DNA from: Anaerolineales bacterium
Lineage (GTDB): Bacteria; Chloroflexota; Anaerolineae; Anaerolineales; UBA6668
Assembly (NCBI GenBank): GCA_020630175.1
Contig: JAHDBW010000013.1
Coordinates: forward strand, 1 to 46,618
Length of the DNA stretch: 46,618 nucleotides
Direction: 5' to 3'
The notes beneath the pieces are model-generated. The model ran no database searches. It had not been told where the DNA came from and saw nothing but the letters and a program-made list of their open reading frames with translations. How positions within the stretch are numbered: position 1 is the first letter of the stretch; each line of letters begins with the position of its first letter. Positions 13,662 to 20,911 of this stretch are shown here, piece by piece. The translations under genes and the position numbers were made by a program.

Positions 13662-14287
13662 CGGATGAACTAAAAAATCCGAACATTCCAGTTCCTGCGG
13701 AACTTGAAGGCACGGTCACAATTACAACCCTAGATAAGTTGTACAACTGGAGCCGCCGCTCTTCAATCTTTCCAATGATTTTTGGTCTGGCTTGCTGTGC
13801 AATCGAAATGATTTGTGCTGCATCTAGCCGCTTTGATCTTGCCCGCTTTGGGATGGAAGTTTTCCGCGCAACGCCACGTCAATCTGACCTGATGATTGTG
13901 TCTGGAACTGTCACCAAGAAAATGGTGCCGCAAATTGTTCGTCTGTACAACCAAATGCCAGAACCTAAATATGTGATGGCAATGGGGGCTTGTGCAAGTG
14001 GTGGTGGTCCTTTCAAAGAAGGCTACAACGTTGTGTCTGGGATTGATAAGTTCATTCCCGTTGACGTTTACGTACCAGGTTGTCCTCCGACTCCACAAGC
14101 ATTGATTTTCGGCTTGATCAAACTTCAAGAAAAAATCGACCAACAATCAATCAAGAGCGTGCCTTGGTACAACTCTGATGCTATTGAAGCAATTCCAATT
14201 CCAATTCTTGGTCCAGATCTCATTGATCCACGCCAAGGTAGTCAGATTGCCCGTGAAATGGCAGTCGCGACGGAGGCCGAAGCGTAA
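13658..14287 (+). CDS. nuoB: NADH-quinone oxidoreductase subunit B
   Basis: This 209-residue subunit of complex I binds the terminal cluster N2, which passes electrons to quinone. The four N2 cysteines are present: the adjacent Cys46-Cys47 (LACCAIEM), Cys112 (GACASGG) and Cys142 (PGCPPTP). The protein acts on the cytoplasmic face at the junction with the membrane arm. It starts by ATGA overlap with iscX and ends with a one-base overlap (TAATG) into nuoCD, so translation is probably coupled. nuoA, which normally precedes nuoB, is absent. The C-terminal extension past residue 165 is somewhat longer than in compact homologues. Confidence 0.95.
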
Positions 14288-16053
14288 TGGCAGCGCCAGC
14301 AACACCTAACACTGAAACTGAAGTACTCTCACTCGAAGAAAAATTCGCTGGGATTGCTAGTCCAGACACCCGTGAAGGGTATGAAGGTTACATCATCGCT
14401 GCTGACAAAGCAGAAGAAGTTGTAAAGTACATTCGTGATGACCTTGGGTATGACTATCTTTCATCCGTAACCGGTGTTGATTATCTTGAAGATGATCACA
14501 TGGAAGTGGTGTACCACGCCTTCAAAACTGAAGGTGGGCCAGCGCTGAATTTCAAGATCCAAACCGATCGTGAAAATCCACGCGTACCGTCGATCACGCA
14601 CCTTTATCCAGCAGCTGAGTTCCAAGAACGTGAAGCCTACGACATGTACGGCATCTTGTTCGATGGACACCCAGACCTGCGCCGCATTTTGATGTGGGAT
14701 GACTTTGAAGGTTGGCCAATGCGTAAGGATTGGAAAGAAGCTTACTATGAAGCTGAAACCAAGCCTTTCAAAAACCGCTGGCCGGGTGGGGATGTTTACC
14801 GCATTGAAGCAAACAACCCATTCAACAAAAATGTTGTTTATCCAGAAGGGTTCAACCTAAACGGTTACAACCCACTTGGCGATAAAACCTTGTACGACAT
14901 GCTCAATCAGTATGATCGTGGTGGTAGCAACCTCAAGACAGATCAAATTGTGGTCAACATTGGCCCACAACACCCTTCAACCCACGGTGTGTTCCGCATG
15001 GTTGTGCGTTTGGATGGTGAAAATGTGAATGCCTTGAAACCAGTTTTTGGTTACTTGCATCGCAACCATGAAAAAATCGGCGAACGCAACACTTGGTTGA
15101 TGAACATGCCGTACACCGATCGTCTAGATTACCTGACATCGATGTGCAACAACCACGCATATGCGCTCACCGTTGAAAAAATGATGGGCTTGGAAGTTCC
15201 AGAACGCGCAGATTACATCCGCGTGCTGATGAACGAACTGACCCGTATTGCCAGCCACTTGTGGGCAACCGGCTTCTTGCTGAACGACCTTGGTGCTTTC
15301 CAAACGCCAATGTTGTACCTCATCAAGAACCGTGAATTGATCTTGGACTTCTTCGAAGCAACGTCAGGCACACGCATGATGTGTAACTACAGCCGCTTCG
15401 GTGGGGTTGCTTACGATTTGCCTGATACGCTACGTGATGAAAACACCATGGACTGGCTCCATGAAATGATCCACGAACGCTTGCCACGTGGCTTGGAAGA
15501 GCTCGAACGCTTCCTGAGCAACAATGAAATTGTGCGCACCCGTGCGATTGGCCTAAGCCCAGTTACGGCGCAAGAAGCAATTGCGTTGGGCATGTCTGGT
15601 CCTATGTTGCGCGCTGCTGGCGTGCCATATGACGTACGTCGTGCAGAGCCATACGGCATTTATGATCGCTTCGACTTCGACATTCCAGTGGGCACCACTG
15701 GCGATGTTTATGATCGCTACCTTGTTCGCGTGAATGAAATCCGCGAAAGTATCAAAATCTTGAAACAGTGTCTTCGTGATATGCCTGCGAAGGGCGACAT
15801 CATGTCAGTGAAACCAGGCTACACGCACAAAGTGCCAGCCGGTGAAGCATACGGCCGCGGTGAAAATCCGAAGGGCGAACTAGGCTTCTACTGTGTTTCT
15901 AAGGGCAAAGGTCACCCGTATCGCTACCATATCCGCGCTCCTAGTTTCATCAACCTGACTGGGTTGGAAAAACTATGCGTTGGTACAAAAATCGCTGATG
16001 TGGTTGTTGTACTCGGTAGTATTGATATTGTTCTTGGTGAAGTAGACAGATAG
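14287..16053 (+). CDS. nuoCD: Fused NADH-quinone oxidoreductase subunit C/D
   Basis: This 588-residue protein joins NuoC (about residues 12-170, with the [20 protein letters not shown] signature) to NuoD (about 217-588). The NuoD part begins with the GPQHPSTHG motif that forms the quinone pocket, continues through [10 protein letters not shown] with the pocket tyrosine, and ends in the family C-terminus [12 protein letters not shown]. Fused nuoCD is known from enterobacteria and some other groups. It overlaps nuoB by one base and is followed after 62 bases by nuoI. No frameshift or loss of key residues is seen. It belongs to the peripheral arm of complex I. Confidence 0.93.
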
Positions 16054-17553: not shown

Positions 17554-18129
17554 ATGTTTACTCAGAAGAACGCGTTGAAATTTGCAGTATTGGCCGTCGT
17601 TACCGGTGCATTGATGTTAGGTCTCACATCAACTATCTATGCAGTCGAAGAACCCATTGGCTCTAAAGCCGCGACACCTGCGCCAAAAGCTGCAGTTGTA
17701 ATTCCGGTCCAGAAAGATGATGACCCGGATCCGCCAGTTCAAGAAGACACTAGCTGCGACCCAAACGCGCGCATGTATAACGGCCTTGATGTACGCAACG
17801 TCCAAGCTGGCGGCGTTTACACTGACTCAAAACCAATGCGCTTACACATCACTTGTGACACGCCAGTCGTTGCATATATGCACAACGATAGCGTCCTCAA
17901 AATTTATTTAGCAAAAGGCATGAAAATGTCAGAAACAAGTGTTGATGTTCTAAACTTGGCTAGCGAAGGATCTATTACTATTCCAACGGAAGATGGCCTT
18001 GGCACAATCACGCTCAAGCCGTTTCAGTGGGGCATTTTATACGTCAGCGTAGAGCATCCGACAGATAACAACGGGATGGCCATGCACAGCAAAATTTTAT
18101 GGGGCCATTATGAAATCCCTCCGGGATAA
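17554..18129 (+). CDS. Secreted protein of unknown function
   Basis: This 191-residue protein has an N-terminal signal peptide (FAVLAVVTGALMLGLTS then a likely cut after IYA near residue 30), an Ala/Pro and Asp/Pro-rich spacer (about 31-65) and a compact beta-rich domain with two cysteines (near residues 68 and 100) that could form a disulfide. I do not recognise the family. The ribosome binding site AGGAAGGA is among the strongest in the window, suggesting high expression. It is flanked by two nearly identical terminators (16951-16978 and 18200-18227) and preceded by a long structured non-coding region, so it is an isolated transcription unit. It may be anchored if the signal is not cleaved. 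Confidence 0.7.
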   Translation: MFTQKNALKFAVLAVVTGALMLGLTSTIYAVEEPIGSKAATPAPKAAVVIPVQKDDDPDPPVQEDTSCDPNARMYNGLDVRNVQAGGVYTDSKPMRLHITCDTPVVAYMHNDSVLKIYLAKGMKMSETSVDVLNLASEGSITIPTEDGLGTITLKPFQWGILYVSVEHPTDNNGMAMHSKILWGHYEIPPG

Positions 18130-18199: not shown

Positions 18200-18227
18200 A
18201 AAAAAGCACCCAATTGGGTGCTTTTTT
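18200..18227. terminator. Perfectly palindromic bidirectional terminator
   Basis: The 28 bases AAAAAAGCACCC-AATT-GGGTGCTTTTTT form a perfect palindrome with T-runs on both strands. They sit between the plus-strand secreted-protein gene and the convergent minus-strand Crp/Fnr operon. Confidence 0.92.
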
Positions 18228-18318: not shown

Positions 18319-19014
18319 TTATGCCTTCACGAGCGCCTGCAGGGCATAGATATTCAAGAGTTCAATCCGCTTCCTGCCAATTGCAATGAGTCCGCGCATT
18401 TTGAATTCGTTTAGCGTTTGGGTTGTTGTTTCGCGGTAGGTGCCCAGAATTTCCGCTAGATCACGGTGCGTGTAGCCGCAAACGGTTGGCGCGACTGGCG
18501 TAGGTTCTGCCATCTGTAGCAACAATGCGGCTAAGCGTGAGGCAATACTTTGGAATGCGATTTCCTCTAGGCGTTTTTCACTGTTACTAAGTCGGTCGCC
18601 CATCACGGTCATCACGCGCATGGCAACTTTGGGTTCTTGCATCATCAATGCGCGTAATTTGCTGGCATGCATGGCAATTACCATGCTTTTCTCGATTGCT
18701 TGGGCAAATGTGTTGCGCTCTTTTTCTTCAAGCACGGCCATTTCTCCAAAAAGATCGCCCGCACTGCGATTGGTAATCAAAATCTTTTTGCCAGATAAGG
18801 TCATGCGGTAGAGTTGCACTTGGCCTTCTAAAATGAGATAGACCGTGCTGGCAGCATCGCCTGGCATGTAAAACAAGTGATCTGGCTTGACCTTGCGCAC
18901 AAATTCTTGCTGACACAAGCGTTGCTGCTGTGCCGTGGGCAAATCTTGGAATATATATAGCGCCGGCCCACAATGTGTGCCAGCCGGTTGGGAGAGTGTA
19001 ATTGGCATCATCAT
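18319..19014 (-). CDS. Crp/Fnr-family transcription regulator
   Basis: This is a 231-residue DNA-binding regulator. A cyclic-nucleotide-binding-type beta barrel spans about 20-130, with GDLFGEMAVLEEKERNTFAQA in the position of the phosphate-binding cassette. The Gly-Glu is kept but the usual R-A-A-T is changed, so the ligand is uncertain. A winged helix follows, with the recognition motif ILGTYRETTTQTLNEF. No Fnr-type N-terminal cysteine cluster is present. The start is placed at 19014, where ATG overlaps the stop of the upstream gene by four bases (ATGA). It is the last gene of the four-gene minus-strand operon. The usual role is to switch genes in response to a small molecule or redox signal. 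Confidence 0.85.
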   Translation of the reverse strand: MMMPITLSQPAGTHCGPALYIFQDLPTAQQQRLCQQEFVRKVKPDHLFYMPGDAASTVYLILEGQVQLYRMTLSGKKILITNRSAGDLFGEMAVLEEKERNTFAQAIEKSMVIAMHASKLRALMMQEPKVAMRVMTVMGDRLSNSEKRLEEIAFQSIASRLAALLLQMAEPTPVAPTVCGYTHRDLAEILGTYRETTTQTLNEFKMRGLIAIGRKRIELLNIYALQALVKA

Positions 19015-19604
19015 TGTTGTCTCTGGGCTAACCCCATCACAATTTCCCCTTCTTGCCACAGGGTGACTTGGATATTGTCAAAGGTGAAGTCGTGCGATTG
19101 GCCGGGGGCCACATCAATTGCGTTACGGAACTCATACAGCGTATAAGCTTGATTGGTTTCATCTTCCAGATGGATTTGAACTGCGATTGAGTCATCTACG
19201 GTACAGTAGCGCGCGCCGACCATGTCATAGCTTGTGAACTGCATGCGGGTGGGGTGCACCGGCGCAAAATCTAGCTGATCCATTTCTGTTGTGAGTGCGG
19301 CAATGCTGGTGGCGCTGAATTCTGTATCAAAACGGCGGGCGTGGTTGAGCGCAATTTCTGCTGCCACAAGCTCTAGCTGCTGTTGTGAGGCGTAACTACG
19401 CATCCCCCAAACAGTAAGCATGACACACACTAAGAAGGCGGCCATTACCGCAGCAGACCGTTGCCAACTGTGCCACACTGGCGGCGTGGGGTGCTGGCTG
19501 GCGCTAACGATGTCCCCTAAATCGCCCAGTAAATCTGGCGGTAGGGTTGCGTTTTCGTAATAATCGCTGAGGCGTTTGTCTAAGTCAGGTGATGATTTTT
19601 TCAT
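19011..19604 (-). CDS. Putative anti-sigma factor, single-pass membrane protein
   Basis: The 197-residue protein has a short cytoplasmic N-terminus (about 1-49), one membrane helix (about 50-67) and an extracytoplasmic domain (about 70-197). Its gene overlaps the ECF sigma-factor gene by four bases and comes directly after it, the standard layout for a sigma/anti-sigma pair. The N-terminus (PDLDKRLSDYYENATLPPDLL) fits a sigma-binding segment but lacks the HxxxCxxC zinc motif of ZAS-type anti-sigma factors. The function is inferred from topology and position. The extracytoplasmic domain would sense an envelope signal. Confidence 0.6.
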   Translation of the reverse strand: MKKSSPDLDKRLSDYYENATLPPDLLGDLGDIVSASQHPTPPVWHSWQRSAAVMAAFLVCVMLTVWGMRSYASQQQLELVAAEIALNHARRFDTEFSATSIAALTTEMDQLDFAPVHPTRMQFTSYDMVGARYCTVDDSIAVQIHLEDETNQAYTLYEFRNAIDVAPGQSHDFTFDNIQVTLWQEGEIVMGLAQRQQ

Positions 19605-20107
19605 TCAATGCCTCGCTTGCTACTTGGAAAGCGGGCTGGATTGTTCAGCAGTTGTCGTAACAATGATTTTGCACGATGAAGCTTGCTGAGAATAGTGCCA
19701 CGCGGTGTATTGGTAAGTGTTGCCAGCTCTTGGGCGGTGTAATCTTCTACTACAGATAAGTAGAGCATTTCACGCGTTTTGGGATTCAATTGCGCCAGCG
19801 CTGCCTCTAAATCGTGGTCAAAGCTGGGTAAATCAATGTCAAGGTCGCCAATTAGATCAAAAGCGTCTAGCGGCTCATTTGGGAAGTTATTCGTTTGGCG
19901 CACGCCATCATAAAACGTGTGCCGAATAACCACGATCAAATAAGAGAGTTGCCAAGGGCCGCCTTTACGGCTGATCTTTAGGCAGGCTTCTTGTAGTAGA
20001 TCTTGGGCGTACTGATGGTCATGCGCAAGCGATAGTGCGTACCGATAGCCCCGATTTAAAAGATCGTCTAAGTTTGGCGGTGTATGTTGTGGATGAGTAT
20101 GACGCAT
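19601..20107 (-). CDS. ECF-type RNA polymerase sigma factor
   Basis: This 168-residue sigma-70-family protein of the extracytoplasmic-function class has a region 2 (about 14-75, with AQDLLQEACLKI and a DGVRQ-type helix) and a region 4 helix-turn-helix (about 103-158, with REMLYLSVVEDYTAQELATLTNTPRGTILSKLHRAKSLLRQ split over the two helices). The linker is short and acidic. It lies 3 bases after the DUF3105 gene and overlaps the putative anti-sigma gene by four bases. A self-regulated envelope-response operon is likely, but no promoter typical of ECF sigma factors could be assigned upstream of 20716. Confidence 0.88.
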   Translation of the reverse strand: MRHTHPQHTPPNLDDLLNRGYRYALSLAHDHQYAQDLLQEACLKISRKGGPWQLSYLIVVIRHTFYDGVRQTNNFPNEPLDAFDLIGDLDIDLPSFDHDLEAALAQLNPKTREMLYLSVVEDYTAQELATLTNTPRGTILSKLHRAKSLLRQLLNNPARFPSSKRGIE

Positions 20108-20110
20108 CCT

Positions 20111-20716
20111 TTACATCCTAAAATCGCCGTTGACCCCACAAGGCAATGCCTCTGGACCCATTTCTTCATATACACGGTAAAAGTCCGTCAATTGGCGGTC
20201 GTCAAATTCATCTAGATTTAGGCGTTGTTGCCAAGCGAGTGCAGTAATTTTAGACTCCATGTCGCCTTCATAAGGCATCACAATCAGGCGTGCCTCATTA
20301 CAGCGATTGAATGGTGCATTGTTGTAGAACGCTTCTAACTCGCTGCGAACTTCGGCACAGTCTTCTTCGCAACTGTACAAAACAACAACGCCGCCGTGTT
20401 CCATACTGTGTAGCCAGTAGCCTTCATCAATTGGTTCGTCATAAATACCCCATGCCAATGAACTCGAGTAATGATCGCCAGAACTCGGTGGATGGTTGGA
20501 ATATTCAATAGGGGTGCCGGGTTGGACGTGATTGCGTCCATCAGAAATTTCAAAAATGATATTTGGATTGTAAATAGGTTCTGAGATTGTGTCATACCAA
20601 AGTGCGGCGCCAAGTCCTGCTACCAGCAATACAATACCACCAACGCCGAACCAAAGTGGTTTGTTGAAACGTGATACCGTCTCAGTTTTCTTTCTATTTG
20701 TATATTTTTTAGCCAT
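20111..20716 (-). CDS. DUF3105 membrane-anchored protein
   Basis: This 201-residue protein has one N-terminal membrane helix (about 21-40) after a basic segment and an extracytoplasmic DUF3105 domain. Signature residues are NHPPSSGDHYSSS with His75 and His82, and LHSMEHGGVVVLYSC with His103 and His107; these histidines could bind a metal. Four cysteines (two in SCEEDC, one in NRCNEA, one in LPCG) suggest disulfides. DUF3105 has no established function. It is the first gene of the minus-strand operon with the sigma factor, putative anti-sigma factor and Crp regulator, and has a good AGGAGT site (20725-20730). It may be the sensed or regulated envelope component. Confidence 0.8.
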   Translation of the reverse strand: MAKKYTNRKKTETVSRFNKPLWFGVGGIVLLVAGLGAALWYDTISEPIYNPNIIFEISDGRNHVQPGTPIEYSNHPPSSGDHYSSSLAWGIYDEPIDEGYWLHSMEHGGVVVLYSCEEDCAEVRSELEAFYNNAPFNRCNEARLIVMPYEGDMESKITALAWQQRLNLDEFDDRQLTDFYRVYEEMGPEALPCGVNGDFRM

Positions 20717-20785
20717 TTGAAGTTACTCCTACTCAGTAAACGATTCAAATTGCCGTTTGATTGCAAATTGGATATATCCCGGCGT

Positions 20786-20814: not shown

Positions 20815-20911
20815 TGGTGAAGCGCAACAGCATTTTGCAGTTGTGCCCTTAACTACAATTCCGCGTAATGATGTCTACACTGTATGCATTACGCTTCACA
20901 ATTTACTTTCT

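Follow-up and report, generated by a model that had tools for sequence, protein, structure and literature searches.

What a DUF3105 protein and a Crp/Fnr-family regulator contribute to an operon with an extracytoplasmic function (ECF) sigma factor and its membrane anti-sigma factor is the question raised by a 46,618-nucleotide contig of Anaerolineales bacterium (JAHDBW010000013.1, here called the window). Operons of an ECF sigma factor with its anti-sigma factor are already common, as are autoregulation and zinc-free anti-sigma factors; what is new is that, in one genus, DUF3105 and Crp are locked into an operon of this kind. The answer favoured here, on a judgement that is about evenly balanced, is that the four genes form an autoregulated operon for envelope thiol-redox or metal stress, in which DUF3105 would be the sensor or a partner and Crp would act as a relay. 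The window comes from G000, a draft Chloroflexota genome in 500 contigs; among named genomes, 'Anaerolineales bacterium' MAG-93 and MAG-116 are the nearest to it.

The four-gene locus

The four genes (Table 1) stand in identical order in the 3/3 genomes that make up the genus sample, namely the window genome, G023 and G036, with protein identities of 62-66% for DUF3105, 69-71% for the sigma factor, 62-65% for the anti-sigma factor, and 68-75% for Crp. Since one order is kept in three genomes at about 62-75% protein identity, the arrangement is considered more than chance. In the window, the DUF3105 and sigma genes are separated by a 3-base gap, while the sigma/anti-sigma and anti-sigma/crp junctions are each a 4-base ATGA overlap, just as the initial annotation had described. 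The sigma/anti-sigma overlap is ATGA in 3/3 genomes and the anti-sigma/crp overlap is ATGA in the two that are readable at this point, as a run of N's in the G023 scaffold masks this junction together with the initial third of Crp. The DUF3105/sigma junction is TAATG in G023 and G036, in contrast to the gap in the window. The crp start is placed at an ATG (19014), where the mechanical list of open reading frames (ORFs) offers a GTG at 19059 instead.

Upstream of the DUF3105 start, about 195 bases of intergenic DNA lead to the divergent gene mrp, which starts at about 20912 and appears in the ORF list as a gene at 20717. Only three exact blocks of at least 10 bases are common to this intergenic region in the three genus genomes. 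The longest, AATTTGCAATCAAAC (15 bases), is followed by CGTT at a constant distance, and 2000 dinucleotide shuffles gave a maximum common block of 9. The other two form TTGGCA-N17-TACAAT, a sigma-70 promoter directed at mrp, the conservation of which serves as a positive control for the intergenic footprint. On the operon side, TGCAATC-N16-CGTT(T/A)AC precedes the DUF3105 start by about 20-30 bases with a spacer that is constant in all three genomes, and from its form and place we infer that TGCAATC-N16-CGTT is recognized, as an ECF promoter, by the sigma factor of the operon itself. The strict pattern is matched 3 times in G000, once in G023, twice in G036, and 0 times in G009, a sister genus of the same family (backward control, 0-1 per genome). 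It lies upstream of the operon in 3/3 genus genomes, and the three remaining matches fall inside ORFs.

At the other end, a hairpin with a T run stands downstream of crp in G036 and G023 as well as in the window. In G036, a SLOG-family gene stands beyond the hairpin, so the unit would end with crp there too. The window hairpin also closes a convergent gene (17554..18129) and is not among the features listed by the consensus scan. With the order kept throughout the genus sample, an ECF-like promoter, and a terminator-like hairpin, DUF3105, sigma, anti-sigma, and crp appear to be a single transcription unit with a candidate promoter and terminator at its ends. The tightly coupled operon initially proposed is thereby borne out by order, junctions, promoter, and terminator in each of the three genomes.

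Table 1. Genes and candidate regulatory elements of the operon, in window coordinates
Feature	Position	Strand	Length	Basis or description
DUF3105 gene	20111..20716	-	201 aa	PF11303 match
ECF sigma factor gene	19601..20107	-	168 aa	Sigma70_r2 and Sigma70_r4_2 matches
Membrane anti-sigma-like gene	19011..19604	-	197 aa	hhalign; hydropathy peak at 50
Crp/Fnr-family regulator gene	18319..19014	-	231 aa	cNMP_binding and HTH_Crp_2 matches
ECF-type promoter candidate	20736..20765	-		TGCAATC at 20759-20765, 16-base spacer, CGTT(T)AC at 20736-20742
Terminator-like hairpin	18200..18227			AAAAAAGCACCC-AATT-GGGTGCTTTTTT; -20 kcal/mol, z -5.9

Beyond the genus the arrangement is not seen. The anti-sigma factor has no match in G009, the single other genome of the family (family total, 3/4), whose contig ends just upstream of mrp, where an insertion of the operon would show. 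At E < 0.001 it is found in 3/101 genomes of the order, and its outer domain is matched in 1/400 genomes of the phylum, namely G000 itself. Another 16 genomes of the order gave matches at E 0.09-1, which are short and scattered and were put down to chance. The closest relative of the sigma factor outside the genus is 34% identical. Thus, among the genomes sampled, the whole four-gene set appears confined to one genus of Anaerolineales. This confinement, together with the paralogues that both DUF3105 and Crp have elsewhere in the genus, is what might be expected if the operon had been assembled within the genus without a common task, the four genes being merely co-located and Crp and DUF3105 being passengers. 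We consider this improbable, as order, overlaps, promoter, and terminator are kept across three species that are 25-38% apart in protein sequence.

The sigma factor and the membrane anti-sigma factor

The sigma factor matches Sigma70_r2 (residues 17-73), Sigma70_r4_2 (residues 99-149), and TIGR02937, all over cut-off, and thus has regions 2 and 4 without region 3 in 168 aa, as is characteristic of the ECF group. The protein encoded after it consists of about 49 cytoplasmic residues, a membrane helix at about 50-70, and a beta-rich outer domain. The zinc motif Hx3Cx2C and CxxC are absent from 3/3 genus orthologues, which places the protein outside the zinc (ZAS) class I type. This absence had been singled out in the initial annotation; it is real, though not remarkable, given that the available text of PMC7406223 puts the non-zinc share of class I anti-sigma domains at about 44%. 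Domains shorter than 50 aa are treated separately in that text as possibly belonging to class II, and the cytoplasmic length, with the helix starting at about 50, fits this limit of about 50 aa.

Whether this protein is an anti-sigma factor at all is a fair question. No Pfam or NCBIfam family is matched over cut-off, the cytoplasmic part is very short, and structure prediction is poor, with a predicted local distance difference test score (pLDDT) of 44 and two helices, 6-18 and 26-34, that are seen only in this model. A membrane protein of some other function would account for these features, yet it would leave unexplained the 4-base overlap with the sigma gene throughout the genus. The outer domain has only a sub-threshold match among plasmids (E 7), and the protein matched is annotated as a Massilia anti-sigma factor and adjoins its own sigma gene. 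From this protein a comparison profile was made by aligning 11 proteobacterial relatives (11/159 records with a match). A hhalign comparison of the 3-sequence genus profile with this 11-sequence profile gives a probability of 86% and an E of 5e-6 over 181 columns, while the control comparison of the anti-sigma factor with DUF3105 gives 3.7%. The outer domain alone scores 29.3, far above 200 column shuffles (mean 12.8, standard deviation 2.5, maximum 22.1). Judged by this profile match and its shuffle control, the window protein is a distant member of the proteobacterial-type membrane anti-sigma factors, in agreement with the sigma/anti-sigma pairing first suggested, and a different function is highly improbable.

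The likeness has its limits. The window protein shares overall layout and outer domain with anti-sigma factors of the type of WP_259213783.1 from Massilia sp. H6, whereas the proteobacterial proteins are about 70 aa longer. The start of the Massilia protein is weakly zf-HC2-like (E 0.018), a feature absent from the window protein. Within the genus, the outer domain is 76-77% conserved compared to 63% for the whole protein, as expected for a part that meets a partner. The plasmid of Massilia sp. H6 itself (L176:1991-3737) carries sigma, anti-sigma, and DUF305 genes that overlap at their ends and are preceded by an NTF2-like gene, and thus presents another sigma pair with an outer-face protein. 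DUF305 is tied to copper in the title of PMC4335983.

The DUF3105 protein

The first product of the operon belongs to the DUF3105 family (PF11303; 99.2 bits, cut-off 25). The open-licence literature searched yielded no paper on this family, while DUF305, taken as a control, gave 14, in keeping with the initial statement that DUF3105 has no known role. The protein has one N-terminal membrane helix (hydropathy peak at 21, with a positive N side) and an outer-face domain containing H82, H103, E106, H107, and C116xxxC120. An AlphaFold2 model obtained from a 13-sequence alignment (pLDDT 87.5) places the membrane helix at 19-45 and shows a core of strand, helix, strand, two strands, and helix. In VIA comparisons, residues of about 88-185 align to thioredoxins (best Z 7.3, 3.6 Å, 98 residues), and among the structure matches listed all or nearly all are thioredoxin-fold chains. 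The outer core of DUF3105 is therefore likely to be thioredoxin-like, as judged from the model. In the same model, C116xxxC120 immediately precedes the helix after the first core strand (110-114), which by topology would be the position of the active site in thioredoxins. The motif is CxxxC and not the CxxC of thioredoxins, and at the sequence level the protein falls outside the thioredoxin family; sequence searches of the PDB gave nothing credible. The CxxxC motif resembles that of the Sco copper proteins. No Sco protein is among the Foldseek and VIA matches listed, from which no conclusion is drawn.

DUF3105 is present in 164/400 sampled Chloroflexota genomes. Conservation was followed in a phylum set of 80 loci, found by the family profile, taken by rank from more than 150 places listed at about one per genome, and in part the same records as in the set of named loci described below. 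H103, E106, and W162 occur in 80/80 of these, H82 in 79/80, and H107 in 76/80. Among 25 loci of the order found by protein search, C116 is present in 25/25, C120 in 23/25, H103 and E106 in 19 each, and H107 in 18. Neither the order set nor the phylum set was found with patterns bearing these His residues. The named loci were found through conserved peptides holding H82 or H103/E106/H107, which inflates their His counts.

The genus also holds DUF3105 outside the operon. In a phylogenetic tree, the operon copies group with stand-alone DUF3105 genes of G023 and G036 (support 95/94), and this group is adjoined by the stand-alone gene of G009 (95/92). In G023, G036, and G009 one and the same 139-aa gene stands next after the stand-alone copy. 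Since the stand-alone gene keeps this neighbour, it is the operon copy that looks like the moved one, a duplicate arising on the stem of the genus. The stand-alone gene (G023 C300, G036 C337) has no counterpart in G000, where the family search returned 2 DUF3105 genes only; this may reflect either loss or an assembly gap.

Linkage of DUF3105 to sigma factors was surveyed in 80 of 91 confirmed named loci by six-frame scanning with an ECF profile built from the sigma genes of G000 and a Crp profile built from few sequences, and many of these loci end early at contig ends. An ECF match was found in 3/80 (the genus loci L070 and L071, and L125 at 7 kb) and a Crp or cyclic-nucleotide-binding (cNMP) match in 4/80, these being L070 and L071 together with L075 and L099, where the match is a cNMP-histidine-kinase. 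Outside the genus, a sigma factor and Crp occur together in 0 of 78 named loci, and a Crp match occurs in 0/80 phylum loci. The expectation that DUF3105 and crp would be linked to a sigma pair elsewhere is thus not upheld. ECF matches lie within the fetched stretch of 3/80 phylum loci. At L207 (3792-5638 of a distant Chloroflexota genome), the ECF gene is about 150 bases downstream of a Cys-free DUF3105 on the same strand and is followed by a short anti-sigma-like gene with a zinc-motif-like, Cys/His-containing sequence, an arrangement not present in its congener L206. At L280 the ECF gene is about 0.9 kb downstream on the same strand, and at L222 it is at 2.4 kb on the other strand. A sigma/anti-sigma pair downstream of DUF3105 on the same strand at L207 and L280 is a hint of a wider linkage, with too few cases for a rule. 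Clustering of all DUF3105 neighbours was dropped, as it mainly picked up antisense frames and shared synteny.

In another family, at L053 and L055 (G017 and G003) and L054 (G031), DUF3105 stands divergently to the gene of a cNMP-binding histidine kinase, behind which comes that of a GAF histidine kinase. L053 and L055 also have a thioredoxin-reductase-like gene in the vicinity. A cNMP link of DUF3105 in family f4 (2/80 named loci) was rejected as no more than rough chance.

It has to be asked whether DUF3105 acts on the sigma switch or is only acted upon. If it were only a target of the sigma factor, serving as an outer-face handler of thiols or metal, the anti-sigma factor would itself sense the signal or be cut by regulated proteolysis. 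In its favour, the DUF3105 gene directly follows the ECF-type promoter, where a main target is usually found; its operon copy derives from a duplicate of a gene that lives without a sigma factor in the same and the sister genus; and the family is widespread in the phylum, yet rarely near an ECF gene. Strict co-retention and tight junctions in 3/3 genomes speak for a closer tie, as does the anti-sigma outer domain, conserved best of all parts as if docking an outer-face partner. We regard a role as target alone as a serious possibility, though somewhat on the unlikely side.

The Crp regulator

The last gene product matches PF00027 (60.3 bits) and PF13545 (57.7 bits), both over cut-off, and is a member of the Crp/Fnr family. 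Its nearest relatives, 40-51% identical, are G000 C53, G036 C468, G023 C360, and proteins of G032, G057, G045, and G002. Of these seven regulators, six (all but that of G002), which are of the same order as the window, are immediately preceded on the same strand by a small thioredoxin-domain gene, matching Pfam Thioredoxin_3 over cut-off in L193 and just under it in L197; at L193, which was scanned, AhpC/TSA and DsbD_TM (CcdA-like) genes are close by. The partner of these regulators is thus a small Thioredoxin_3 gene, whereas the window Crp is joined to DUF3105 and the sigma pair. The thioredoxin neighbours of the Crp relatives and the predicted fold of DUF3105 are two independent pointers to thiol redox. 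Two output regulators had initially been ascribed to the unit, which fits its gene content, although no target was found beyond the operon's own promoter.

Proposed mode of action

Under the favoured reading of an autoregulated envelope-stress operon, the first 49 residues of the anti-sigma factor, which are cytoplasmic, would hold the sigma factor at the membrane. These residues recall class II domains such as that of CnrY in their length and in the two short helices predicted in the pLDDT 44 model. A signal on the outer face, in the most likely case a redox or metal change in DUF3105 that acts on the anti-sigma outer domain, would free the sigma factor; alternatively, a change in the anti-sigma factor itself may release it. 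The freed sigma factor would then transcribe its own operon from TGCAATC-N16-CGTT, a step that the conserved footprint supports. Induction would raise both DUF3105, as partner and effector, and Crp, which would carry the response on to further genes.

The known system closest in gene content is CnrYXH of Cupriavidus metallidurans, which, in the available text of the sources, comprises the ECF sigma factor CnrH, the membrane anti-sigma factor CnrY, and the periplasmic, membrane-anchored metal sensor CnrX (PMC7689651, PMC4598750, PMC7406223). The cytoplasmic domain of CnrY is described there as two helices of class II (PMC7406223, PMC4598750), and CnrX as the trigger of sigma release (PMC7689651). 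As far as these descriptions go, both systems have an ECF sigma factor, an anti-sigma factor that crosses the membrane once and has fewer than about 50 cytoplasmic residues and no zinc motif, and an outer-face protein that is anchored in the membrane and has many conserved His residues. The sensor CnrX is all-helical, whereas DUF3105 has a predicted thioredoxin-like core and no homology to that sensor; the window anti-sigma factor, which resembles CnrY in layout, differs from it in having a large outer beta domain; and the window operon adds a Crp regulator and is not followed by an efflux pump. By analogy in gene content, the window operon may work like CnrYXH.

Several observations weigh against the favoured reading. 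That DUF3105 contacts the anti-sigma factor and binds metal is something we infer, and outside the genus DUF3105 is mostly unlinked to sigma factors. The thioredoxin Z is middling (below 8), the best Foldseek E is only 0.05, PF11303 is the only Pfam family matched, with none of the thioredoxin families, and a profile search of the PDB gave none. The Cys pair occurs in only 39/80 phylum loci, and 6/25 loci of the order lack the HxxEH set yet have the Cys residues, so neither site is universal. In addition, the strict promoter pattern, which would miss variants, has no second intergenic copy in the genus, and the regulon may thus be the operon alone.

A bolder form of the proposal holds that DUF3105, with its thioredoxin fold and His/Glu/Cys residues, is a new type of ECF sensor for metal or disulfide state, acting through a class II-like anti-sigma factor with Crp as a second stage, and built by duplication of the stand-alone gene. 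This is tentative and, in our judgement, rather unlikely. If DUF3105 is the sensor, a new sensor fold would be added to the three-part ECF switches. From its place in a sigma/anti-sigma operon, a role in envelope redox or metal stress can be proposed for the DUF3105 family and put to the test; the set of promoter, sigma factor, anti-sigma factor, and partner is small enough for rebuilding in Escherichia coli.

Other features of the region

Elsewhere in the window, a 588-aa ORF at 14287-16053 on the forward strand resembles the NuoC-NuoD fusion of complex I, as judged by eye only. The mrp leader contains a hairpin at 20863-20894 on the forward strand, with arms GCGTAATG...CATTACGC in the window and GCGAAATG...CATTTCGC in G023, where both arms are changed, while G036 has a different stem at the same place. 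Fold z values are -3.3, -1.6, and -2.3 in the window, G023, and G036, respectively. This hairpin is possibly an RNA switch or attenuator of mrp, an Fe-S carrier gene.

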